A stretch of DNA of 33,896 nucleotides. Source: Micromonospora sp. CPCC 205371 (GTDB lineage: Bacteria; Actinomycetota; Actinomycetes; Mycobacteriales; Micromonosporaceae). The notes under the pieces are model-generated. The model searched no databases, had not been told where the DNA came from, and was given only the letters and a program-made list of their open reading frames with translations. Each line of letters opens with the position of its first letter. The first letter of the stretch is position 1. Of this stretch, positions 93 through 13,222 are shown in pieces. The translations under genes and the position numbers were made by a program. Location: contig NZ_JAIBNX010000090.1 in assembly GCF_026130045.1 (NCBI RefSeq), forward strand, positions 1 through 33,896, written 5' to 3'.

Positions 93-343
93 ATGACAGG
101 CAGGGTCGAGAACACCGTCGAGTTGGAGACCTCGGTAGTCGAGCGCCTGAGCGAGTATCTGGCGCCGCACGGATGGGTGCTGCACCGTATCGAGCGTGGT
201 GACGAGGTTGCCTTCGTACGCGAGCCGACCAGCGAGTGCACCTGGCATTTCGGCGTCAATCTCGCCGGGCGCGAGGGCGTTTCGCTGAGCGGCAGCGTCT
301 GCGTGGAACATGTGGTCGTCGCCGAGGAGCAGCGCCGGCTATA
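93..343 (+). pseudogene. N-terminal fragment of a hypothetical protein interrupted by a transposon
   Basis: The ATG at 93 opens a frame of about 84 host residues with ordinary protein character (LAPHGWVLHRIERGDEVAFV, then a segment around WHFGVNLAGREG). The frame runs into the transposon at about 344 and stops at 363-365 inside transposon DNA. The C-terminal half is found at 7077-7493 on the other side of the element. Joining ...CGGCTA to CCTCAC... gives an uninterrupted reading (QRRL followed by PHVLTPNDAQQ), so the two parts were one gene. I do not recognise the family. No strong ribosome-binding site precedes the ATG, so the start is provisional. Confidence 0.6.
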
Positions 344-395
344 TGTTGCGCGCCGTTCGCGATGAGCGTGTAGGCGTCGTTGTTGGTGAGGATGT
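344..395. repeat. Left transposon end with two subterminal repeats
   Basis: Two related sites begin with TGT at 344 and 369. The site at 369 shares GCGTCGT and TTGGTGAGGATG with the reverse complement of the right end. The site at 344 resembles the reverse complement of 6992-7021: both contain GCGCG, then CG, TGA and GTAGG at matching spacing with one gap. They are probably transposase binding sites. Confidence 0.6.
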
Positions 396-409
396 GGCGT
401 CATGAAGGA

Positions 410-436
410 GCCCCGCCGGGCGGTGTCCGGCGGGGC
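410..436 (-). terminator. Hairpin at the left end of the transposon, after the ATPase gene
   Basis: A perfect 10-bp GC-rich stem (GCCCCGCCGG against CCGGCGGGGC) with a 7-base loop lies 27 bp past the ATPase stop codon. No U-tract follows on the minus strand, so it is a GC-type terminator at best. It would also act on plus-strand readthrough from the broken host gene. Confidence 0.6.
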
Positions 437-463
437 TTGGTGTTCACGTTGTCGTGGTGGTGC

Positions 464-1279
464 TCATTCTGACGTGACTTCGGCGACGGCGGCGCGGGTG
501 GCGGATTCGTCGACGATGGCTTTGTCGGCGGTGAAGGCGGCGACGAGGGCTTGGATGGCGAGGTTGTTGACGGCGCGGGGTAGGCCGCGGCTGGTTTGGT
601 GGATCAGGGCGGTGGCGTCGTCGGAGAACAGGGTGTCGGTGCGGCCGGCGAGGGCGAGGTGGTGTTTGAGGTAGCCGGCGGTTTCGGGTGGGGTCATGGG
701 GTGCAGGGTGTAGCGCAGCGCGATGCGTTGGTCGAGGGCGGCCAGGACACCGAGTCGGATTTTGCGGCGGAGGGTGGGTTGGCCGACCAGGAGGCAGGCG
801 AATGGGCTGCGGGAGTCCATGTCTTGGTTGGTGAGCATGCGGATGCCTTCGAGTTGGGCGTGGTCGAGTAGGTGGGCTTCGTCGATGACCAGGACGGGGG
901 TGCGGCCGCGTTCGGCTTGTTCGGTGGCGAGGGCGTCGGCGGCTTGCGGGATCAACGTGGCCATGTGGGGTTTGGGGACGCCGCCGAGGGCGGCGACGAT
1001 GGCGTGGTGGGTGGCGCGGGCGCCGATGGTGGGGTTGCCGAGGTAGATGGTGGTGTGGGGGGTGGGGTCCAGGCCGGTCAGGGCGGCGCGGACGGCGACG
1101 GTTTTGCCGGCGCCGACTTCGCCGGTGATGACGCCGAGGGCGCGTTCGTTGACGCACCAGGTGATGCGGGCGATGGCTTCGGCGTGGGCGGTGTGCCGGT
1201 GCAGCATGCCGGGGGCCAGGTCGCGGCCGAACGGGGTGCGGGTCAGTCCGTAGTGCGCCTGCAGGCGTTCGATGGTCAC
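464..1279 (-). CDS. ExeA/TniB-like AAA ATPase, transposition helper
   Basis: This 271-residue P-loop ATPase probably activates or targets the adjacent DDE transposase, as TniB or TnsC proteins do. It has a Walker A motif (GEVGAGKT), a Walker B motif (VLVIDEAHLL) and a C-terminal helical segment (TSRGLPRAVNNLAIQAL) typical of the ExeA/AAA_22 family. I chose the GTG at 1279 because AGGAGA lies about 8 bases upstream and because it overlaps the TGA of the preceding small gene in a GTGA junction. The frame stays open further upstream, but that part encodes a low-complexity His/Arg/Pro stretch typical of a shadow frame. It is last in the transposon operon and looks intact. Confidence 0.85.
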   Translation of the reverse strand: MTIERLQAHYGLTRTPFGRDLAPGMLHRHTAHAEAIARITWCVNERALGVITGEVGAGKTVAVRAALTGLDPTPHTTIYLGNPTIGARATHHAIVAALGGVPKPHMATLIPQAADALATEQAERGRTPVLVIDEAHLLDHAQLEGIRMLTNQDMDSRSPFACLLVGQPTLRRKIRLGVLAALDQRIALRYTLHPMTPPETAGYLKHHLALAGRTDTLFSDDATALIHQTSRGLPRAVNNLAIQALVAAFTADKAIVDESATRAAVAEVTSE

Positions 1280-1464
1280 GGTTGTTTCTCCTGGCAGATG
1301 GTGGTGAACAGGCGCTGCTGCCAGTAGATGAGGTCGGCGTCGGTGATCGGCGGGTAGCCGTAGCGGGTCAGAATGTTGCTGATGTCGATGGCCAAACCGA
1401 GGCAGAACCGGTGGTCGTCGCCGTCGCACGGGCGTGGGATCGGGTAGCGGTGGTTGCCGGTCAC
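1276..1464 (-). CDS. 62-residue protein between transposase and ATPase
   Basis: This short gene starts at GTG 1464 inside the transposase stop (GTGA overlap) and ends inside the ATPase start (a second GTGA overlap), so its translation should be coupled to both neighbours. The product, from MTGNHRYPIP to CQEKQP, contains DADLIYWQQRLFTTI, which looks like an amphipathic helix. No enzymatic motif or zinc site is visible. Its position suggests an accessory transposition factor or adaptor between transposase and ATPase. I do not recognise a family. Confidence 0.65.
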   Translation of the reverse strand: MTGNHRYPIPRPCDGDDHRFCLGLAIDISNILTRYGYPPITDADLIYWQQRLFTTICQEKQP

Positions 1465-2330
1465 GGCCGTTGTTCGGTGTTGTCGGGCTCGTTGCTGCCG
1501 CTGATGGCGGTGTAGTTGACGCGGTCGGCTACGTGCTGGTCGTGGACGGCGTCGATCAGGCGCAGGTAGTTGATGCCGGTGGGGGTGGGCAGGTCGGCTG
1601 CGACGTGTTCGGGGCGGGCCTTGGGGTGGGCGTGTCGGCCGATGCGGAACGCCACGGCCAGGCCGTAGCTGCGCTCGTTGTGGCGGACCTCAACGTCGGT
1701 CATGTCGAACGGGTCGAACACGAGCTCGACCTTGCGACCGACCAGGATCGGGTCGACCTGGTAGGTGTTGTTGTGCAGGCTGACGGTGGCGGTCTTGGCG
1801 ACCGTGCGGGTCGCGGACCACAAGAACGCCTCCCGCAACGCTGCCGGGCTGGGGACGGGGACCGGGCCAGTCAGCCTGTCCCGCCAGCGGACCAGCGGCG
1901 CCTGACCGGTGCTCGAATGGGTTGTGGTGTGGTAGACGGTTTCGACCCAGGCGGTGAACAACCGGTTGAGTTGCACCAGATCGACCACCGTCGTGTCTGG
2001 TGTGGACAGTTCGACGAGGAACTGCTCCCGCACGGTGCGGAAGAAACGTTCGATCTTCCCGCGGCCCTGCGGACGGCCCGGCTGGGAGTGCACGAGCTTG
2101 ATGCCGAGACTGGCGCAGGCGCGTAGCAGCCACGAGTCGACGAACGCGCTGCCGTTGTCGACGTAGATCGCCTCCGGGACACCCCGTGATCCCAGGGCCG
2201 GGCGCAGCGCCGCCGCCAGCCGGACGGTGTCTTCGGCGAACCCGAACCGTCCTGCTATCACCGCGCGGGAGTGATCGTCGATAAACGCGAACAGGTAGGT
2301 CTTCCGCCCGGCCACCAGCGGGCCGTGCAG
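1461..2330 (-). pseudogene. C-terminal part of the DDE transposase, cut off by the RIT element
   Basis: This part carries the RNase H-fold rve core: first Asp in FIDDHSRA, second Asp in VDNGSAFVD, catalytic Glu in GRGKIERFF, then a beta-barrel Mu-type C-terminal region (NNTYQVDPILVGRKVELVFDP). The sequence up to 2330 reads LHGPL before AGRKTYLF, which continues directly from the N-terminal part that ends at 5734 (TGDA). The reconstructed gene would have 457 codons plus a stop. A GTG at 2315 could start a truncated product containing all three catalytic residues but lacking the N-terminal DNA-binding region. The end overlaps the next gene by GTGA. Confidence 0.8.
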
Positions 2331-2363
2331 GGCGTCTTATGACGACTGCTTCGTTATGCCGCC
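2331..2363. repeat. RIT left inverted repeat (33 bp)
   Basis: It begins GGCGTCTTATGAC and ends TTATGCCGCC, and is the exact reverse complement of 5681-5713. Its first six bases are also the direct repeat shared with 5734-5739. A further copy of the core TTATGCCG is found inverted at 2411-2418. Confidence 0.9.
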
Positions 2364-2418
2364 CGGCGTCGAGGACTGTCTGTTGTGGAGGCCTTAGCTT
2401 GTGGTCGGTTCGGCATAA

Positions 2419-3408
2419 TCAGAGGCTGTTGAGGAACGCCAGGATGGTGTCGGTGGGCTGGTAGCGGCCGGGTGTCGCGGTGATCGGTGCGGTGCGGTTC
2501 AGGGCGCGTTCCTTGAGCGCGAGGTCGGCGTGGACGTAGATCTGTGTGGTGGCAACGCTTTCGTGGCCGAGCCAGAGAGCGATGACGGTGATGTCGACGC
2601 CGGCGTTCAGGAGCCGCATGGCGGTGGAGTGCCGCATGATGTGCGGGGAGATCTTCTTGCCGGCCAGGGTGGGGCACGATTGGGCGGCGGTGCGGGCCTG
2701 TTTGGCGACGCGTCGTTCTAGGGCGTCTCTGCTGAGCCGAAGCCCTTGGCGGGTGGGGAACAGCGGGTCGGTCGGTGCGCCGGCGCGTTCGGGTAGCCAG
2801 GCGTTGAGCATGGTGATGGTGGCGTGGGTCAGTGGGGTGATGCGCTGCTTGCGGCCTTTGCCGTGGCAGCTGATGTGGGCGCCGGTGCCCAGGTGGACGT
2901 CGTTGATGGTCAGCGCGGTCAGTTCCGAGGCGCGTAGCCCGGTCTGGAGGGCGACTGCGAGCATGGTGCGGTCTCGGCGGCCGATCCAGGTGTGGGGGTC
3001 CGGGGCTTGCAGCAGCGCGTCGATCTCGGGTTCGGTCAGGTAGGTGACGATGTTGCGGTCGAACCGTTTGGGAGGGATGGCCAGCACCCGCTGGATCGAC
3101 TTCGCGTGTTCGGGATGGTGCAAGGCGGCGTAGCCGAACAGGGAGTGCACCGCGGCGAGGCGGGCGTTGCGGGTGCGCACGCTGTTGCCGCGCTCGGTCT
3201 CCAGGTGGTTGAGGAACTCGCCGATCAGTGGCGCGTCCAGATCCTCGATCGTCAGCCGCGACGGCTGGATACCGGTGCGGGCGAAAGCGAAGGCCAGCAA
3301 CAGTTTGAACGTGTCACGGTAGGCGGCGACGGTGTGTGGGCTGGCCTGGCGTTGCCGGATGAGCCGGTCGGTGAAGAACGCCTGCAGGGTCGGAGCCAGT
3401 GCGCTCAT
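2419..3408 (-). CDS. RIT tyrosine recombinase C (third gene)
   Basis: This 329-residue phage-integrase-type tyrosine recombinase has an N-terminal SAM-like core-binding domain (about 5-100) and a C-terminal catalytic domain. Visible catalytic residues are Arg159 (TGLRASE), the Lys in HGKGRKQR, His256 and Arg259 (HIMRH), His282 (GHES) and the nucleophile Tyr291 (TQIYVHAD). All are present, so it should be active. The ATG at 3408 overlaps the TGA of the second recombinase (ATGA), implying coupled translation. In RIT elements the three proteins are thought to act together on the element ends. The division of labour cannot be read here. Confidence 0.9.
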   Translation of the reverse strand: MSALAPTLQAFFTDRLIRQRQASPHTVAAYRDTFKLLLAFAFARTGIQPSRLTIEDLDAPLIGEFLNHLETERGNSVRTRNARLAAVHSLFGYAALHHPEHAKSIQRVLAIPPKRFDRNIVTYLTEPEIDALLQAPDPHTWIGRRDRTMLAVALQTGLRASELTALTINDVHLGTGAHISCHGKGRKQRITPLTHATITMLNAWLPERAGAPTDPLFPTRQGLRLSRDALERRVAKQARTAAQSCPTLAGKKISPHIMRHSTAMRLLNAGVDITVIALWLGHESVATTQIYVHADLALKERALNRTAPITATPGRYQPTDTILAFLNSL

Positions 3409-4337
3409 GCGACACCTGCCAGATGGGTGTCCAGGCGCTGCCCGGCAAGGGCGAGCAGCTCCGGCGCCGCGGACAGGTACCAGAACGTGTGCTTCGGGTC
3501 GGCGTGGCCCAGGTAGGTGGACAGCCGGGGCAGCAGAGCCGCGACGTTCTCGCCGCGGCGGTACCAGTCCAACAGCGTCGCCACCGCGAAACTGTGGCGA
3601 AGATCGTGAATCCGCGGCCGGCAGTTCCCCGATCTGGGCACCAACCCGGCTGATGTTCTCACCTTCCGCCAGGTCCGCTGCGCCCGGCTGTGGTCCAGCC
3701 GGGTTCCGGCATTGGAGATGAACAAGGCGCCGCTGTCAGCAAGGTTTTTGTAGTGCAGCAGTTGCTGGCGCTGGGTCAGATAGTGGCGTAGTCCGTCCGT
3801 GGTGCTGGGGTGCAGCGGCAGGAGGCGGCTCTTGCCGAACTTGCCGTCGCGGACGGTCAGGACCCCAGCATCGGGGTCGAAGTCGCCCGCATCCAAGCCG
3901 ATCGCCTCGCCGAACCGCATGCCGGTGACAGCCAACAGGCTGATCAACGCCGGGTAGGTGACCGCGTAAACCCGGCTATGGAGCCTGGTGGCCGCCTGCA
4001 CCAACGCGTGGATCTCCGCATCGGAATACAGATACGGGGTTGCCCGATGCTTGCCGTGAGCGATCAACCCCGACGGCGGTATCTGGGTGCGGTCGTCGAT
4101 GGTGCGTAGGTGAACCGCGAACCGGCGCACCGCCGAGAGCCGCATCGCGTGCCACCAGCCGGACCGGTCAGGCTGTGTCGCCCACGCCACCGCGTGCTCG
4201 ACTGTCACGACGTCCACGTGCTGGAGCTCCAGGTAGCTGACGAACTGGCCCAGCAGCTTCTCGGCGCGGTCAAGCTTGGACCCGAGGGCACGGCGGACGC
4301 TCAGATAGTCGGCCAGGGCCTGCCGCAGCGGGCTCAT
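3405..4337 (-). CDS. RIT tyrosine recombinase B (second gene)
   Basis: This tyrosine recombinase of 310 residues has catalytic residues Arg141 (TGMRFGE), a Lys in DGKFGKSR, His244 and Arg247 (HDLRH), His278 (LGHADPKH) and Tyr287 (TFWYLS). I start it at ATG 4337, which overlaps the TGA of the first recombinase in an ATGA junction. The frame stays open upstream to a possible start at 4361, which would add eight residues. The wide TFWYL spacing and the GHADPKHT motif are typical of the middle member of such trios. It looks intact. Confidence 0.88.
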   Translation of the reverse strand: MSPLRQALADYLSVRRALGSKLDRAEKLLGQFVSYLELQHVDVVTVEHAVAWATQPDRSGWWHAMRLSAVRRFAVHLRTIDDRTQIPPSGLIAHGKHRATPYLYSDAEIHALVQAATRLHSRVYAVTYPALISLLAVTGMRFGEAIGLDAGDFDPDAGVLTVRDGKFGKSRLLPLHPSTTDGLRHYLTQRQQLLHYKNLADSGALFISNAGTRLDHSRAQRTWRKVRTSAGLVPRSGNCRPRIHDLRHSFAVATLLDWYRRGENVAALLPRLSTYLGHADPKHTFWYLSAAPELLALAGQRLDTHLAGVA

Positions 4338-5548
4338 GCCGCAGCCGCCGAAGTAGGCCAACCGCGGGCGATCGTCCGCAGCGAGCCGATGTCGACCTTC
4401 GCGTAGATCGTCGTGGTCAGCGCGTGCTGGTGCCGCAGTACTTGACCGATCTCGGCCAGCGACGCGCCCGCGGTCAGCATGGCCGTGGCCGCGCTGTGAC
4501 GCAGCCGATGAGCATGCGCGACCCCAAACCCGGCTCGACGGGCGGCCCTGGCCACCACGTTGGTCACCGCGTTGCGGCTCATCGGCCCGTGCGGGGCGCG
4601 GGCGCAGAGGAACACCTGCCGGGCGCCGGTTTTCGGCCGCCAGCCGGTCAGATACGACACGATGGCTTGGCCGACGTCGGCGGGCAGCGGCAGCCGTTCG
4701 GTCCGATGGCCTTTCCCCGTGATGGCCAGTTCACCGTTGGGCCAGTCGATGTCCTGCAGCCGCAGCCCGGCGACTTCCCCGATCCGTAGGCCCAGCCGCG
4801 ACAGCATGGTCAGGATCGCCGTATCCCGTTGGCCCACCTCGGTGTCGGGGTCGCAGGAGGCCAGCAGCCCGGTGACCTGGATTGCGGGCAGGGCCTTGGG
4901 CAGTCCGGCCAGCTTCCACCGGGCCAAGGTCGGCACCGCGGTAGCCAGCCCCACCGAGGTGATGCCCGCGACGTGCAGATACCGCAGCAGCGACCGCAGC
5001 GCGGTCACCAGATGCGGCACCGACCCGGGACCGCGGCGTGTCTGGTCCACTACGAACGCGGTGACCTCGCCGGCGGTCAACGCTTCCAGCTCAAGGCGGC
5101 CATCGCTCATCCGCGACTCCACGAACGGACGCAGCGCCCGCATGTTCCTGTCGATCGTCCGGGCGGAGAGTCCCCGCTCCGTGGCCTCATAGTTGCCATA
5201 CCGGGCGAGCAGCGCGTCGGACGCGGTCATGGCCGGGTTCGGTCGATCAGCGACCGGCGTCCCGACGAACCGCAGGTATTCCAGCAGCTCTGCCCACGAC
5301 CCTGCCCGCCAAGTCCTGAATCGACCAGCCGCATCCTGGACCGCGATGAACGCGTCCACTGTCGCCAGGCCGAACGCGGCGATGTCCTGCTTCTCGGTGC
5401 CCATCCAATGGCTCAGGTGCGTCATGCGCCGCTGATGAATCCGTACCACCGCAGGCGCGTAACCCTTGCGCACCAACCATTCCGTGAAACCCGCCTCATA
5501 CGGCGCCAACGGACCGAACATCTCTAGCCGAGCACGGGACCACGTCAC
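4334..5548 (-). CDS. RIT tyrosine recombinase A (first gene)
   Basis: This 404-residue tyrosine recombinase heads the trio. Its long N-terminal region (about 1-215) holds the DNA-binding core domain. The catalytic part shows Arg255 (LGLRIGE), Lys279 (ITGKGHR), His347 and Arg350 (HRLRH), His373 (LRHQH) and Tyr382 (TTIYAKV). The GTG start at 5548 is supported by AGGAGA about 6 bases upstream. The trio must be transcribed from the 130-bp stretch between this gene and the right inverted repeat, so the recombinases may bind over their own promoter. Confidence 0.9.
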   Translation of the reverse strand: MTWSRARLEMFGPLAPYEAGFTEWLVRKGYAPAVVRIHQRRMTHLSHWMGTEKQDIAAFGLATVDAFIAVQDAAGRFRTWRAGSWAELLEYLRFVGTPVADRPNPAMTASDALLARYGNYEATERGLSARTIDRNMRALRPFVESRMSDGRLELEALTAGEVTAFVVDQTRRGPGSVPHLVTALRSLLRYLHVAGITSVGLATAVPTLARWKLAGLPKALPAIQVTGLLASCDPDTEVGQRDTAILTMLSRLGLRIGEVAGLRLQDIDWPNGELAITGKGHRTERLPLPADVGQAIVSYLTGWRPKTGARQVFLCARAPHGPMSRNAVTNVVARAARRAGFGVAHAHRLRHSAATAMLTAGASLAEIGQVLRHQHALTTTIYAKVDIGSLRTIARGWPTSAAAA

Positions 5549-5680
5549 GATCGTCTCCTGTCTTGAGGTCCTTCACCTCCATAGACAGGCACGCCGCCCG
5601 ATCATGACGATGGTTATGCCGCCCCAAACGGATGACTTCAAACCCCTCCACCAGCAGCGAACGCCCGATTCCCGCGACCA
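5549..5680 (-). promoter_or_regulatory. RIT leader and probable promoter region
   Basis: This 132-bp non-coding stretch lies between the right inverted repeat and the first recombinase gene. It contains GGTTATGCCGCC at 5613-5624, an internal copy of the inverted-repeat core, and CCTCCATAGACAG, which resembles the left-end subterminal sequence CCTCCACAACAGACAG read on the minus strand. These are probable recombinase sites. No clear -35/-10 pair stands out. Confidence 0.5.
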
Positions 5681-5713
5681 GGCGGCATAACGAAGCAGTC
5701 GTCATAAGACGCC
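5681..5713. repeat. RIT right inverted repeat (33 bp)
   Basis: It begins GGCGGCATAACG and ends GTCATAAGACGCC, and is a perfect 33/33 reverse complement of 2331-2363. At its outer edge CATAA, GACGCC and TTATG form a symmetrical arm-spacer-arm layout. Confidence 0.9.
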
Positions 5714-5739
5714 TTATGCCGCACGCGGCATAAGGCGTC
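5708..5739. repeat. 32-bp palindrome at the RIT right junction
   Basis: GACGCCTTATGCCGC and its reverse complement face each other around a central AC. The outer six bases on the right (5734-5739, GGCGTC) belong to the interrupted transposase. The left copy belongs to the inverted repeat. No counterpart exists at the left junction, so the element ends are asymmetrical. Confidence 0.85.
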
Positions 5740-6237
5740 GCCGGTCCACAACTCGTTCGGGCGGTCGGCTTCGAACCGGCCGAACACCGCCGGCGCCTGT
5801 GGCGGCGCGGCGGCCAGGCCGAGGCGTTCGAAGTGCCGCTGCAAAGTCCGTAGCGACGGCGCCCACCCCGTCTGGACGATCATGATCCGCCGTACTTGGG
5901 TCGCGGTGCGGGCCGGGTTCTCCCGCTTCAGCCCCGCCGCCATTTCCAATACCTCGGCCGGCGTGCGAGGGCTGACCTGCGCCGGGCGGGGCACCAGGGC
6001 AGCGAACCCGCCAGTGCGCCACCAGCGGATCCACCGGTCGATCGTCGATCGGCCCACGGTGACCTTGTCCCCGAACGGGCCGTCATGCTCAGCCGCGACA
6101 AGCTGGCGCACCAACTTCCCGCGTTGGCGCGTCGACAACGCCGGGTCGACGACGTCCTGGATGAGCCGGTAGCGGAACAACGCCACCTGCCGGGCCCGCT
6201 CGGCCCGCATCCTCTGATCTTGTTCTTCGCTGGACAA
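5734..6237 (-). pseudogene. N-terminal part of the DDE transposase, cut off by the RIT element
   Basis: These 168 codons hold two helix-turn-helix segments (TVGRSTIDRWIRWWRTGG and ATQVRRIMI...LRTLQRHFERLG) and end in ELWTGDA, the usual run-up to the first catalytic Asp. The reading then enters RIT DNA and stops at 5638 after an unrelated 31-residue tail, giving a potential 199-residue DNA-binding fragment with no catalytic core. The start is TTG 6237, with GAGG a few bases upstream. No in-frame ATG or GTG gives a better start. The catalytic half lies at 1461-2330. Confidence 0.8.
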
Positions 6238-6296
6238 CAGTCACCCTCTTCGCCTCGATGCAACAAGCACCAGGCGAAACTGGCCAACCTGGCCGA

Positions 6297-6917
6297 TCAG
6301 AGCGGGCTTGGCCAGGGCGGGCTGGTGTTGATCGGCAACCCCGCCCGATCCGGTGACAGCAACCTGCCGCCGGTGACCGCGCAGCTCACCCGCCAGGGCG
6401 ACACCGTGAGCACGTCCCAACCCCACCGGCGGGCGATCGCCACGCCGGCGGCGACGGTCGCCGCGGCCGCCTCAGCCCGCGGTGACCCCGCCGGGACCGG
6501 CAGGACCCGAGCCGGGGCGACCCCCGCCCGGGCCTGCCCGAACAGCCGACGCACCAGCTCAGCGCGATACGCGAACCGCGTCAGCCAGCCACGGACCGTC
6601 GAGCGGGCCCGGCCAAGCGCTCTGGCGATCCGACCAGCACCGGCACCCGCGGCCCGAGCCGCCAACGCCGACCCGACCACCTCGACCTCGTCCGCCCGGC
6701 GCACCAGCACAGTGACCGGCAGCAACACCTGCGACCGACCACACCGCTCACACCGGCCCCGCCGCGGCCGCACCACCCGCGACGACCAGCGCGTACGCAA
6801 CCGCCGCGAACGAGCGAACCCCCACGGCCGTAACACCCCTGAACACGCAGGACAGACGACCTGCCCCGCCCGCAGCCGTCTCTCGACGGCCACCGCATCC
6901 GCCTCTACCGTGAGCAT
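6297..6917 (-). CDS. Zinc-ribbon and HTH protein of the transposon (DUF6431-like)
   Basis: This 206-residue protein begins at ATG 6917, preceded by GGAGG at good spacing. It has an N-terminal zinc ribbon (CPAC...CERC, two CxxC pairs about 34 residues apart) and a central helix-turn-helix (GRIARALGRARSTVRGWLTRFAYR). It resembles the DUF6431 proteins found beside actinobacterial transposases, a family recalled from memory. The C-terminal third is Ala-rich. It is first in the transposon operon, 60 bp before the transposase, so it may be a DNA-binding regulator or target-recognition factor. Confidence 0.75.
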   Translation of the reverse strand: MLTVEADAVAVERRLRAGQVVCPACSGVLRPWGFARSRRLRTRWSSRVVRPRRGRCERCGRSQVLLPVTVLVRRADEVEVVGSALAARAAGAGAGRIARALGRARSTVRGWLTRFAYRAELVRRLFGQARAGVAPARVLPVPAGSPRAEAAAATVAAGVAIARRWGWDVLTVSPWRVSCAVTGGRLLSPDRAGLPINTSPPWPSPL

Positions 6918-6940
6918 CGGTGCCTCCAAGCACCACACAC

Positions 6941-6982
6941 GGCCCTCCCGGGCGGCTCCGCCAAGAACGGTCCGGGAGGGCC
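6941..6982. repeat. Hairpin at the right end of the transposon, upstream of its first gene
   Basis: A perfect 11-bp stem (GGCCCTCCCGG against CCGGGAGGGCC) encloses a 20-base loop that contains a smaller GCGG/CCGC stem. It begins 24 bp before the first transposon gene. It could block transcription entering from the host gene or structure the operon leader. It mirrors the hairpin at 410-436. Confidence 0.6.
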
Positions 6983-6991
6983 GGACCAGTT

Positions 6992-7076
6992 CCTACGTGT
7001 TCACCGTGGCGTCGCGCGTCACCAAGAGCAATCCACCGGTAGCCGTCAAAACCATCCTCACCAGCGACGACGCACA
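6992..7076. repeat. Right transposon end with two subterminal repeats
   Basis: Read on the minus strand from 7076, the end begins TGTGCGTCGTCG and continues CTGGTGAGGATG, matching the left-end site at 369. A second site, read from 7021 (TGACGCGCGACG... GTAGG), matches the left-end site at 344 with one gap. Any promoter for the transposon operon must lie here or just inside. Confidence 0.6.
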
Positions 7077-7493
7077 GCTACCTCACGTCCTCACACCGAA
7101 CGACGCGCAACAGCTATACGGCTGGGACGGCACCGTGTGCCAGGTCGGCGCGAGCATGCTCGATCTCGTGCACGCGGCGGAACAGTCCAGTCCCACGCTT
7201 TTTCGGTGGTGGGTCGCGGCGCTTGGTCAAGTAGACGAGGCCGTTGCGCAGGTGGTCTCGGACCTGAGGACCTACGGTGAGCCCTTCCTGCGCGACAATC
7301 TCACGCTGCCCCAAATAGTCGAAACCCGAAATCTCAGGTCGAATACGGAACACTGGCGCTCTGCTACGCACTGCAGGGCGACCTACCCCAGGCGCGGGCC
7401 ATGCTGGCGAAGTTCGGCGCGGTGGTTCGGGTATTCGCCGGAGGGCAGACGGAAGCCTTCACCCGCAACTTCGCCAAGCGATTCGGCCTCTGA
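7077..7493 (+). pseudogene. C-terminal fragment of the interrupted hypothetical gene, frameshifted
   Basis: The frame entering from the transposon junction reads PHVLTPNDAQQLYGWDG, then FRWWVAALGQVDEAVAQVV and LRTYGEPFLRDNLTLPQIVE. A second frame, opening near 7320-7345, supplies a natural C-terminus (VEYGTLALCYALQGD, then AVVRVFAGGQTEAFTRNF) and a TGA at 7491-7493. So the gene carries a frameshift at about 7320-7345 as well as the insertion, or the read has an indel there. The family is unknown. The end resembles a small helical repeat domain. Confidence 0.6.
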
Positions 7494-7814
7494 GCTTGCC
7501 ATCGAAAGTGACCGAGGCGCTGGGCGCTTCAGATTTGAAAGCCTCACGATCACCCGCGTGTCGAACCGACCGCACGCCACCCCACCGCCGCCCGGCGAGC
7601 ACAGCGCGCTGAGCGCAGCAGAGCACAACGACGAACTCCCCGAACATCGTCCCCCGACGTAGGTGACCAGTGCATTGCAAGCATGAGCCAGAGTCCCTGG
7701 CCGTCGGGCAGTGAGCAGGACCTGAACGCGCACCGGCTCGGCCCTGACTCATAGGCAACGTCTTCCCCAAGCGAACTGACGGCGGCATGACCGGAAGACA
7801 TGCATGGATGATCG
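7494..7814. other. Intergenic, no gene recognised
   Basis: Several frames are open on both strands, but none has a ribosome-binding site or protein-like composition. I see no RNA gene or repeat. It separates the broken host gene from a minus-strand membrane protein. Confidence 0.5.
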
Positions 7815-9773: not shown

Positions 9774-9880
9774 GCGGATCTAGGCTACCGGACCCTTTCG
9801 CCGCCCCCGCGCGCCATGCGGGTTCACGCAAGTATCGACGCGGGTGCAACCCGCTTGCCCCTGCCGTGCGTCTTCGTGGC

Positions 9881-12800
9881 GTGACGAAGCGTAGATTCGC
9901 CAGTTTTCTGGCCATCACACTACTGCTCGCCACCACAGGCGGGCCGGCGTTCGCTCAGGCATCTGGGCGGGCGGTAGAGCGGGCAGCGGGGCAGGCGCCG
10001 GAGCAGGGGCCGGCGCCCGTCCTGCCAGCCGGTAAGACGTACACGGTGACGCTGCTGACCGGCGACGTCGTCACCGTCCACACGAGATCATCTGGGTGCC
10101 CGGACGTGTCGGTTCGGCCGGCGCGGTCGAGCGGGATGCTGCACAAGAGCTGCGGTGCCGATGGGCACGTGCGGGTGATACCTGGCACGGTGGCCGGGCT
10201 GGTGGGCAGCGTGCTCGACGAGGCGCTGTTCGACGTGACGACGCTGATCCGGGAAGGGTACGACGACGCGCGCAGCAAGGAGCTGCCGCTGATCGTCAAG
10301 CCGGCGGACGGCCGCGCCAGGAGCGCGTTCGTGACCGGTCTGATCGGGCAGCGAGAGCTGCGGAGCATCGGCGCGGTCGCCGGCAAGCAGCCCAAAGGCA
10401 AGCCCATGACCGCGCTGGCTGACCCAGCGGCGGCGGGCAAGGTCTGGCTCGATCATCGGGTACACGCGACGCAGGCGAAGCTGGACCGGAATCTGCGCCA
10501 GGTGTCGGCGCCGCAGGCGTGGGCGGCCGGGTACACCGGCAGGGGCGCCCGGGTTGCGGTGCTGGACACTGGGGTGGATGCCACGCACCCGGACATCGCG
10601 GGGAGGGTCGCGGAGGCGGCGGACTTCACCGGCAGCAGCCCGGAGGCGGTCGACGGGCACGGGCACGGCACCCATGTCGCTGCCACTGTCGCGGGCAGCG
10701 GCGCCGCGGCTGGCGGGGAGCGCCGGGGTGTGGCTCCGGACGCGCGGCTGGTCGTCGGCAAGGTGCTCGACGATCTTGGCCTGGGCACCGATTCGCAGAT
10801 TATCGCCGGCCTGGAGTGGGCGGCACCGCGCGCCGATGTGGTCAACCTGAGCCTCGGCGGCTACGAGCCCAGCGACGGCACCGACCCGCTGTCCCAGGCG
10901 GTCGACGCGGTCAGCGAGCAGCACGGCACTCTCGTGGTGGCCGCGTCGGGCAACGATCCCCTTGACCGGCTGATCAGTACGCCGGCCGCCGCGGCGTCGG
11001 CGCTGACCGTCGGTGCGGTGGACGGTGCCGACCGGCTGGCCGAGTTCTCCGGTCGTGGGCCGGTGATCAACAGCAACGCGCTCAAGCCGGAGATCGTCGC
11101 GCCGGGCGTGGAGATCGTCGCGGCTCGCGCCGCGGGCACCGGGATCGGGCGGATCATCGACGAGAGGTACACGGCCCTCTCGGGGACCTCGATGGCGGCG
11201 CCGCACGTCGCGGGCGTTGCCGCCCTGCTGGTCCAGCAGCACCCTGACTGGGATGCCCGCCGGCTCAAGGCGGCCCTCGTCGGGTCCGCGGACCGGCTGG
11301 AGGGCGCTGACGCGTACACGGTCGGATCGGGGCGGCTCGACGCCGCGCGTGCCCTCGGTGCGCTCGTGCCCGACCAGGCCGTGGTCAACCTCGGCGCCGG
11401 CGGCGCCGGGACCAAGCCGGCCTGGGCGAACACCCGCGCGCGCTTCGCGGGGATGGCGGCGTCCGGTACGGTGGCGGCCCGGGTGGGGGCCCAGGCGCCG
11501 GACGCCGCGACGCTGTCCGACCGGAGGCTGGCGATCGATGCTGGCGGCACGGGTACCACGGTGTTACGCATCGACCGCGACGGTTTGGCGACCGGGTTCT
11601 ACACCGCGACCGTGACGGCTCGTAGCGGCGGCCGTACGGTGACCACGCCAATCGCCTTCTACGTGGAGCCGCCCACCGTCGAGCTGTCCATGTCGATGCG
11701 GCCCCTGCCGGACGCACCGGCCGAGGCGGACATCTTCCTGTTCGGGCAGATCGTCAACCTGGAAGATCCGGCGCTCTTCGCCGTGACGTTCTACCTCAAC
11801 CGCGGCGGTGAGGGCTTCAAGGCGCGGGTGCCGGCTGGCCGGTACAGCATCACCGGCTCCGTCTACGAACTGGGCGAGCGCGAACGGATGGCGCTGACCG
11901 GCGACTCCGACATCACCCTCGCCACCGATACCGCCTTCACGCTGGATGCCACGAACGCACGGCCGGTGAAGGTGGGCGTCGAGGGCGTGGAGACCTCGCC
12001 GGTCGCGGTCGGCGTGTACTACGAGCAGCGTGCCCGGCGCGGCTTCGGCTGGTACGACTTCGCGTTCGCGTGGGAGGACAACGCGCGCGCTGGCGGTGTC
12101 TACGCCGTGCCGCTGGACGAGCCCGGCATCGGCGAGTTCCAGGCGTACACGGTGGCGGGGATGGAGGCGCCCGGCCCGTCGTTCTACGACGTGATCAAGG
12201 CCCATCCGTCGGGCCTGCCGGCCGACGCGTCGCATCAGGTGACCGCCGCCGAGCGGGCCAAGCTGGTGCGCATCGACCAGCGGTTCCACCGGCTCGACAA
12301 GCCGGAGACGGTCACCGGCCACAAGCGGTACGGCGTCAGCGCGTCCGGGCGGCTGGTGTCCGAGTCGTTCACGCGGGACCTGTCCGGCGACCGCGTCGAC
12401 CACGTGTCACCGGAGTACAGGTGGATCGACGAGGCGATCTACGACGACCTGGTCACGCAGGAGGCGCCGCGCAGCTACCCGCCGGGCAGCCGGCACGAGA
12501 AGGTCTGGGTACGCCAGCCACTGCGCCCCGACTGGTACGACGACCCGGCCGAGACGGTGGGCGGATGCGCACCGGAGCCGATCACCCGTACCCGCGGCCA
12601 CCTGTATGTCGAACTGGTCCCCATGACCGACCAGCACCAGCGTGGCACCTGCTTCGAGCTGGGCCTCGCGACCACCGCCCTGTACCGGAACGGGGCACTT
12701 CTGGGCGAGGTCGAGGGGTCGGTGGGAGACTTCGCGATCCCGGCCGAGCGCGGCACGTACCGGCTCGTCCACGAGGTGGACAACAGCGGGTGGCTGCCGA

Positions 12801-13222
12801 CCTCGACCCGGGTGAGCACCGCGTGGACGTTCAAGTCGGCGGGCCCACGCGGCACCGGGTCGGCTCCCGTGCCGCTGCTGTCGGTCGACTATGAGCTGCC
12901 CCTGGACATCGCGAACCGACCCGCCGGCCGGGAGGCGGCGTTCACTGTCCACCAGGCGCACGGGGTGGCCCGGCAGCGGATCACTTCGCTTGCGCTGTGG
13001 ACGTCGGTGGACGACGGCGTCACCTGGCAGAAGGTGCCGGTATCGCGGGACGGCGCTGACCGGTTCAAGGCGCAGCTACCGCAGCCGGCGGCCGGACAGG
13101 CGGTGTCGCTACGGATCGCGGTCAAGGCGAGCGGCGGCAGCGCACTCGACCAAACCATCGTCCGCGCCTACCAAGGGGAGACCGGCGGCTCAGGTCGGCA
13201 GGTTGAGGGCGCGGCGGGCTAG
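9881..13222 (+). CDS. Secreted S8 subtilisin-like serine protease with large C-terminal region
   Basis: This exported endopeptidase has a signal peptide (MTKRRFASFLAITLLLATT, cleavage near PAFAQA), a propeptide region (about 40-190) and a subtilase catalytic domain. Counting from GTG 9881, the triad is Asp229 (AVLDTGVD), His262 (GHGHGTHV) and Ser437 (SGTSMAAPHVAG). The oxyanion Asn lies in VVAASGN. About 600 residues of beta-rich sequence without a recognised domain follow. GTG 9881 gives the most natural signal peptide. GTG 9866 would add five residues. Neither has a clear ribosome-binding site. The 3' end overlaps the convergent EI24 gene by 33 bp. Confidence 0.9.
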   Translation: MTKRRFASFLAITLLLATTGGPAFAQASGRAVERAAGQAPEQGPAPVLPAGKTYTVTLLTGDVVTVHTRSSGCPDVSVRPARSSGMLHKSCGADGHVRVIPGTVAGLVGSVLDEALFDVTTLIREGYDDARSKELPLIVKPADGRARSAFVTGLIGQRELRSIGAVAGKQPKGKPMTALADPAAAGKVWLDHRVHATQAKLDRNLRQVSAPQAWAAGYTGRGARVAVLDTGVDATHPDIAGRVAEAADFTGSSPEAVDGHGHGTHVAATVAGSGAAAGGERRGVAPDARLVVGKVLDDLGLGTDSQIIAGLEWAAPRADVVNLSLGGYEPSDGTDPLSQAVDAVSEQHGTLVVAASGNDPLDRLISTPAAAASALTVGAVDGADRLAEFSGRGPVINSNALKPEIVAPGVEIVAARAAGTGIGRIIDERYTALSGTSMAAPHVAGVAALLVQQHPDWDARRLKAALVGSADRLEGADAYTVGSGRLDAARALGALVPDQAVVNLGAGGAGTKPAWANTRARFAGMAASGTVAARVGAQAPDAATLSDRRLAIDAGGTGTTVLRIDRDGLATGFYTATVTARSGGRTVTTPIAFYVEPPTVELSMSMRPLPDAPAEADIFLFGQIVNLEDPALFAVTFYLNRGGEGFKARVPAGRYSITGSVYELGERERMALTGDSDITLATDTAFTLDATNARPVKVGVEGVETSPVAVGVYYEQRARRGFGWYDFAFAWEDNARAGGVYAVPLDEPGIGEFQAYTVAGMEAPGPSFYDVIKAHPSGLPADASHQVTAAERAKLVRIDQRFHRLDKPETVTGHKRYGVSASGRLVSESFTRDLSGDRVDHVSPEYRWIDEAIYDDLVTQEAPRSYPPGSRHEKVWVRQPLRPDWYDDPAETVGGCAPEPITRTRGHLYVELVPMTDQHQRGTCFELGLATTALYRNGALLGEVEGSVGDFAIPAERGTYRLVHEVDNSGWLPTSTRVSTAWTFKSAGPRGTGSAPVPLLSVDYELPLDIANRPAGREAAFTVHQAHGVARQRITSLALWTSVDDGVTWQKVPVSRDGADRFKAQLPQPAAGQAVSLRIAVKASGGSALDQTIVRAYQGETGGSGRQVEGAAG

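Follow-up and report, generated by a model that had tools for sequence, protein, structure and literature searches.

Recombinase-in-trio (RIT) elements, described for Cupriavidus metallidurans and others, carry three overlapping tyrosine recombinase genes in about 3.5 kb (PMC2864759, PMC3414803; these and the other papers are cited from the parts of their text that were available). The former source describes a related pair of RITs, found in the radC genes of two hosts, and a further one in the tnpA of an IS66, and the latter a RIT in a Tn6049-like transposase gene, bounded by an inverted repeat with an overlapping palindrome. RitA is reported to have two sequential core-binding domains (PMC8138268). 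Strand-biased circularizing integrative elements (SE) are similar in using tyrosine recombinases, in having few targets and in carrying a 6-bp spacer from the previous site, but they encode two recombinases plus two other proteins (PMC10214605). GInt (PMC5385486) and Tn554 (via PMC10214605) share with RITs a 6-nt staggered exchange, mixed junctions and site preference, whereas their gene sets (four genes and TnpABC, respectively) are unlike the RIT trio. The available parts of these sources do not describe, for SE, GInt or Tn554, the movable 20-bp palindrome (P) reported below. In a 2023 table (PMC10214605), target specificity and movement of RITs are entered as not tested. Here, we analyze a RIT in a 33,896-nucleotide stretch of Micromonospora sp. 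CPCC 205371 (the window), which is one contig (C472) of a 9.36-Mb genome in 481 contigs, and compare it with RITs at other loci, numbered L. The window element itself is an ordinary RIT; the regularities surrounding it are the point, and the comparison of sequences supports its anatomy, its empty sites, a target tendency and spacer footprints.

RESULTS

A RIT element lies within a TniA-like transposon within a host gene

Three adjacent tyrosine recombinase genes, in which neighbors overlap by ATGA, were found between 36-bp inverted repeats of 97% identity, with a palindrome overlapping the repeat and a total length of about 3.5 kb. Each gene is related to RitA, RitB, and RitC of other trios. 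In gene trio, size, inverted repeat and overlapping palindrome, the element is thus of the same kind as the RITs in the available parts of PMC2864759 and PMC3414803. No fourth gene, such as CDS2/CDS4, ginD, or tnpC (of SE, GInt, and Tn554), was found between the RIT ends. An earlier note, made from the letters of this DNA alone, had stated that the RIT genes look intact, and as three open frames with ATGA overlaps they do.

The RIT splits a single DDE transposase gene, which is restored by deleting positions 2331 to 5733. In the orientation of the transposase, the locus reads GGACCGGC / GACGCC / TTATGCCGCGTGCGGCATAA / GGCGTC / body / GACGCC / CTGCACGGCC. The earlier note had placed the RIT boundaries at 5734/2330 and suggested looking for the transposon without the RIT. 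That search yielded three uninterrupted relatives, L157 (GGACCGGCGACGCACTGCACGG), L158 (GGACCGGCGACGCCCTGCACGG) and L164 (GGACCGGTGACGCCCTGCACGG), which read through exactly at these boundaries with a single copy of the 6-bp spacer. All three empty sites encode WTGDALHG, with the window insertion at TGD/A, and the D of TGD is presumably the first catalytic aspartate of the DDE triad. The open frames over the empty site comprise 602 (L157), 494 (L158) and 337 residues (L164, frameshifted further upstream).

For the outer element, the earlier note had proposed a right end at 7076, with the host gene rejoined across CTA at 341/7080. This join preserves the reading frame, as does a join at 343/7119, and frame alone is therefore unable to choose between them. 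The host-gene homologues L167 (54%), L168 (53%) and L165 (35%) run across 343/7119 without a gap, whereas the 341/7080 join costs a 12-residue gap in all three. In addition, the alignment with L157, a 3175-bp contig of genome G128 with TGTTG tips matching those of the window at both contig ends, covers window positions 344 to 2330 (88% and 80%) and 5735 to 7112 (76%). An end at 7076 was ruled out on these grounds as wrong by 32 to 36 bp, and we consider it almost inconceivable that it is correct. The search for the empty host gene, which the note had also suggested, thus moved the right boundary.

With these ends (Table 1), the three-level nesting is confirmed, the homologues of both host gene and transposase being uninterrupted. 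The order of events given in the earlier note, in which the transposon would have entered the host gene and the RIT the transposon, is supported by both sets of empty sites (L167, L168, and L165; L157, L158, and L164). The note had also described the transposon as disabled, which holds in the sense that its transposase gene is split. A second full RIT copy was not found in the genome of the window; besides the element's own repeats, the search returned only partial matches of 160 bp (74%) and 83 bp (75%).

Table 1. Coordinates of the nested elements and genes in the window
Feature	Position	Strand	Basis
Host gene 5' part (conserved hypothetical)	93..343	+	Homologues L167, L168, L165 run on across 343/7119
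Target repeat GCTATA (6 bp), left copy	338..343		Read in sequence
TniA-like transposon, corrected ends	344..7112		Tips TGTTGCGCG; match L157
Left terminal inverted repeat	344..366		Inverted repeat I2; L157 tips
Subterminal repeat, left	374..394		Inverted repeat I6
AAA ATPase gene of transposon	464..1429	-	AAA_22 1.1e-19; conserved part from about 1282
Transposase gene 3' part (rve core, Mu-type C-terminal domain)	1461..2336	-	Pfam
Whole RIT insertion, 3403 bp including one spacer copy	2331..5733	-	Empty sites L157, L158, L164
Spacer adjoining B' (GACGCC on minus strand)	2331..2336		
RIT body	2337..5707	-	Ends TTATGACGAC, each with a pair of TTATG boxes 17 bp apart
ritC, tyrosine recombinase	2419..3408	-	Phage_integrase 7.6e-35
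ritB, tyrosine recombinase, ATG at 4337	3405..4337	-	Phage_integrase 3e-21 (on longer frame, TTG at 4361)
ritA, tyrosine recombinase	4334..5548	-	Phage_integrase 6.4e-26
Spacer between body and P	5708..5713		
20-bp palindrome P	5714..5733		
Spacer between P and target side B	5734..5739		
Transposase gene 5' part (HTH)	5734..6237	-	Pfam
DUF6431/HTH-like gene of transposon	6297..6938	-	Weak Pfam, below cut-off
Subterminal repeat, right; outer border mistaken for element end in the earlier note	7053..7073		Repeat I6
Right terminal inverted repeat	7090..7112		Inverted repeat I2; L157 tips
Target repeat GCTATA (6 bp), right copy	7113..7118		Read in sequence
Host gene 3' part, frameshifted near 7326	7113..7494	+	Alignment to L168

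Related RITs share one plan with a movable palindrome

The survey was seeded with the RIT of the window and is not a random sample. A contig scan gave 15 loci, 11 of them in Kibdelosporangium philippinense (four at 71% and seven at 56% of RitB). RITs were present in 16 of 300 genomes of the window's family, 13 of 345 of its class and 11 of 396 of its phylum, its own genome included each time. Viral contigs contributed 21 RIT loci, and 16 plasmid regions were chosen from 418 plasmid records with RitC and 246 with RitB. The gene order A-B-C was found in 83 of 137 units. Ends were scanned in 99 loci, and a pair of TTATG-like boxes 17 bp apart was required for acceptance, leaving 94 end records in 86 loci and 55 units with both ends. 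P was called when at least 7 of 10 arm positions matched; 9 or 10 matched in 61 of the 70 P copies, and 4 or fewer in 64 of 73 sides without P.

These RITs follow a common plan, B / 6 bp / P (20 bp) / 6 bp / body / 6 bp / B', where B and B' are the two sides of the target. It was found in 47 of the 55 two-ended units; P lay outside the ritA end in 23 of them and outside the ritC end in 24. Two units had P at both ends and six at neither. Among the P-less units, L033 and L057 stop at contig ends, and L078, L095, and L133 are flanked left and right by one and the same side of the target gene. L027, with two copies of P, has the N-terminal side of a transposase on one flank and an unassigned gene on the other. 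L078, L095, L133, and L027 fit a scheme of one P per B end plus rearrangement between copies. L105 has a palindrome beyond each of its ends.

The position of P followed the target and not the body. P lay on a constant side of the target in all 12 target classes compared (43 insertions, with gene orientation entered by hand, including nine serine-recombinase cases of which seven are K. philippinense copies), while the body faced both ways in 10 of the 12. There were also 20 single-ended records that lack P. For 13 of them the P side of the target class is known, and each of these 13 shows the opposite side, as judged by eye; the other seven have no such class for comparison. No published statement of this P rule, or of the target rule below, was found in a search that did not extend to Ricker 2013, the main RIT paper; the available parts of PMC2864759 and PMC3414803 state neither the P rule nor a clade-wise target rule nor spacer footprints.

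Insertions often fall at the same codons of conserved genes, mostly of other mobile DNA

Target labels and gene orientation were assigned partly by eye, and the labels of L033 (five residues), L064, and L075 depend on short flanks. Reading frames of the flanks were chosen by GC content at third positions plus motif reading; choice by open length alone was abandoned after giving wrong frames in several loci. The labelled set omits 24 of the 94 end records, namely seven near-copies of K. philippinense family 2, the chimeric L027, the second ends of five labelled units, and 11 records without a target label (L044, L056, L057, L067, L078, L098, L103, L104, L105, L113, and L139-C). It also holds one unit, L121+AB, for which the end records have no entry of that name. 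Of the 71 labelled units, 27 lie in transposases, six in transposition ATPases, six in serine recombinases, three in tyrosine recombinases (one a RitB), and three in group II intron reverse transcriptases. A further 15 interrupt genes often found on plasmids or phages (ArdC-like, 4; RadC, 1; DUF3489, 10).

Sixty flank fragments were prepared and 50 searched with Pfam. Transposition or recombination families were matched by 28, of which L109, L119, and L124 fell below the curated cut-off and two were generic (AAA_22 in L051, HTH_21 in L128). Seven matched ArdC-like, DUF3489, RadC, or phage-tail families, four matched other families and 11 none. Four of these 11 were later named, as a group II reverse transcriptase (L050) and IS1380 (L133), both under the cut-off, a resolvase (L047) and SRAP (L132).

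Insertions in different hosts stopped at the same profile position in five families. In IS256, L046, L048, L110, L111, and L131 stop at position 253 and L026 resumes at 257; in IstB, L029 stops at 158 and L053, L114, and L144 resume at 161; in MPTase-PolyVal (the ArdC-like genes), L135 and L140 stop at 51 and L096 and L138 resume at 55. L059, L060, and L120 resume at 93 to 94 of DDE_5, and L118 and L119 at 132 of Phage_integrase. IS66 was entered at two places (L112 and L127; L136 and L137), as was the ExeA-type ATPase (L051; L058). The motifs at the insertion points include TGD-ALHG, VAD-FTYV, RLHDLRH, YADD, HELxH, VDELG, YDAGKK, TCVxHLIR, and TMSEAELH; we assigned the catalytic ones among them on what we take to be the known features of each family. 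Together, this suggests that each RIT lineage may be directed to a single conserved segment of a given gene, mostly of other mobile DNA.

Two nested cases were also seen. L042 and L051 (contigs C38 and C274 of genome G027) appear to belong to one relative of the window's transposon whose transposase and ATPase genes each hold a RIT, the two being from different clades; the contigs share a GATGCG spacer, and their joining is inferred. In L144, on the Rhodococcus opacus plasmid pR1CP1, a RIT lies inside the ritB of another RIT, beside an FWYL motif.

Target class largely follows the RIT phylogeny

On a tree of 70 RITs (L134 was dropped) with 31 target groups, target class required 32 changes, against a minimum of 30 and a mean of 56.5 after shuffling (0 of 200 shuffles as low), a score that near-copies improve. 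For 17 of the groups, most of them single rows without test value, no separate result is listed. Eight of the 14 listed groups needed a single change (SerRec, ArdC, IS701, RT, IS66_ct, IS5, IS3, and YR), and IstB and hypMVRG needed two each. Target class thus largely follows the RIT phylogeny, strongly overall and weakly for the class of the window.

The clade of the window has seven members: four transposase insertions, L028 and L030 of K. philippinense, and L043, which sits in a methyltransferase-like gene. In other hosts as well, this lineage interrupts TniA-like transposases at the codons hit in the window.

Spacer differences alter the encoded motif less than expected

Among 46 units, the three spacers were identical in 18, two were alike in 19 and all differed in nine. 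In 65 differing spacer pairs, agreement was 0.97 at position 1 and 0.95 at position 2, compared to 0.34 to 0.68 at positions 3 to 6. Read in the target frame, 10 of 26 units with differing spacers encoded identical residues and 16 differed at one residue. For 40 distinct differing pairs, 25 residue differences were observed, while simulation gave 33.8 with random bases at the same positions and 44.2 with random positions among 3 to 6 (0 of 2000 runs as low as 25 in either control). The 15 pairs with identical residues were reached in 45 of 2000 runs of the first control and in none of the second. Spacer differences therefore altered the encoded motif less than the controls, as would be expected of traces left by similar targets occupied earlier, and the odd spacer fits an origin in another copy of the same gene family.

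A model for RIT insertion and its alternatives

The explanation that we consider probable is site-specific insertion by a RIT circle joined through P, in lineages tuned to their targets. At the window, a TniA-like transposon (344 to 7112, with a 6-bp target repeat) would have entered a conserved hypothetical gene, and a RIT of a lineage recognizing this transposase motif would then have entered at TGD/A-LHG, splitting the transposase gene. The recombinases may form a circle whose ends are joined via P (right end / 6 bp / P / 6 bp / left end). P would give both ends the same half-site, and either end could undergo recombination with the target over the 6-bp spacer, so that insertion in either orientation would connect B with P and B' with a body end. 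Spacers would be swapped or repaired during insertion while preserving traces of the site last occupied; a match would be required at the first two spacer bases, with exchange presumably starting at spacer positions 1 and 2. At a guess, the two core-binding domains of RitA might match the paired boxes. Such a process would amount to site-specific hyperparasitism by three tyrosine recombinases, whose roles we infer.

That P is instead a palindrome which the target had before insertion, or always belongs to one particular end of the element, would agree with earlier work in which a palindrome overlaps an end (PMC3414803, available part). Both versions were rejected, however: the empty sites L157, L158, and L164 have no P, and P can lie at the one or the other end of the body (23 and 24 units), which makes this alternative very improbable. 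Shared sites could also have been inherited, with old RIT-in-transposon composites copied or passed on and site sharing reflecting no target choice. The body has the same orientation in the window, L029, and L042, and the available part of PMC3414803 reports such composites at the same place in two almost identical strains. Against this, the body is reversed at the same codons in L129 and its orientation varies in most target classes. Identical recombinase rows occur at different sites, in different genes, of the one K. philippinense genome (L028, L029, and L030), which is also an indirect sign of RIT mobility. Furthermore, the transposon of the window is closer to the uninterrupted L157 than to the interrupted L029, which favors independent insertions, and we regard inheritance as unlikely.

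Several findings weigh against insertion by target-tuned lineages. Neither a circle nor an excision nor a new insertion was seen. The class of the window, TniA (four rows), needed three changes, with 33 of 500 shuffles as low; IS66_C did not cluster, all 500 shuffles giving as low a count, and IS256 and DUF3489 needed four and three changes. Of the four K. philippinense copies of the close RIT, two lie in other genes (L028, L030) and one (L027) has a half site only. Eleven of the 71 labelled units lie in other or unknown genes, to which the unlabelled records add a further 11. L131 and L105 are not simply accommodated by the common plan. Spacer position and codon position are largely confounded, and codon position was therefore set aside as a test of spacer origin and the simulation used instead.

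Beyond the mechanism of site-specific insertion, we lean toward a wider reading, in which RITs would be a broad class of hyperparasites, each lineage tuned to one conserved, mostly active-site codon string of other mobile elements (the DDE aspartate, Walker B, YADD, HExxH, RxxHxLRH, or the catalytic-tyrosine region of a rival RitB), with a movable P as two-way landing half-site and 6-bp records of the previous target. Inteins similarly sit in active sites of host proteins. The catalytic character of the targets could equally be incidental, at about even chances: RITs may simply need conserved DNA in multi-copy genes, with no role for catalysis and no competitor silenced. Some targets are indeed not enzymes of mobile elements (the methyltransferase-like gene in L043, DUF6585 in L028, SRAP in L132, and HNH in L039). 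Nothing decisive speaks against this alternative, active-site codons being simply among the best conserved; it concerns selection, not mechanism, and overlaps with the preferred explanation of site-specific insertion by a P-joined circle. The survey yields exact RIT ends, a target rule and a testable mechanism. If the hyperparasite reading is true, one class of mobile DNA persists in conserved, often catalytic codons of other mobile DNA, disabling it, and families of natural tyrosine recombinases with different targets are on offer.

The outer transposon, the interrupted host gene and neighboring sequence

TniABQ transposons (Tn5053/Tn402) and the transposon of the window are alike in a DDE transposase with a Mu-type C-terminal domain, an AAA ATPase, TG-ended terminal repeats and several end sites. 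In Tn5053 the target repeat is 5 bp; in the window it is 6 bp, and a DUF6431/HTH-like gene is present instead of TniQ, which was not found among the frames scanned by profile, some short frames lying outside the scan. The name TniA-type used in the earlier note is thus fair for the transposase and ATPase, but not as regards TniQ. In NCBIfam, the 3' part of the split transposase alone scored 109 bits versus a curated 224 for IS481 and 44 versus a curated 160 for IS21. The gene order, including the DUF6431/HTH-like gene, is common to L157, L029, and L129, and visual inspection showed similar tips in L029 and L158 and at one end of L162. For the target repeat of the L029 transposon, 6 and 8 bp both fit.

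Translated (tblastn) matches to the ATPase gene begin only at residues 46 to 53, and the gene has one match only in the window's genome. About 210 bp of the window near 1295 to 1505 are absent from L157. Terminator-like G+C-rich hairpins lie just within both transposon ends (411 to 438 and 6940 to 6983), as in L157, L029, and L158.

The C-terminal part of the host gene shifts frame beyond about 7326 compared to L168 (window 7300 to 7340), making the gene pseudogene-like twice over. The same genome holds partial second copies or paralogues of it, L170 (G000:C466:34888-34965) and L148 (G000:C449:80392-80508), one of which is cut at a contig end. Further along the window, at 9866 to 13222, a 1118-residue frame resembles a secreted subtilisin-type protease, with GHGTHV and GTSMAAPH motifs recognized by eye.

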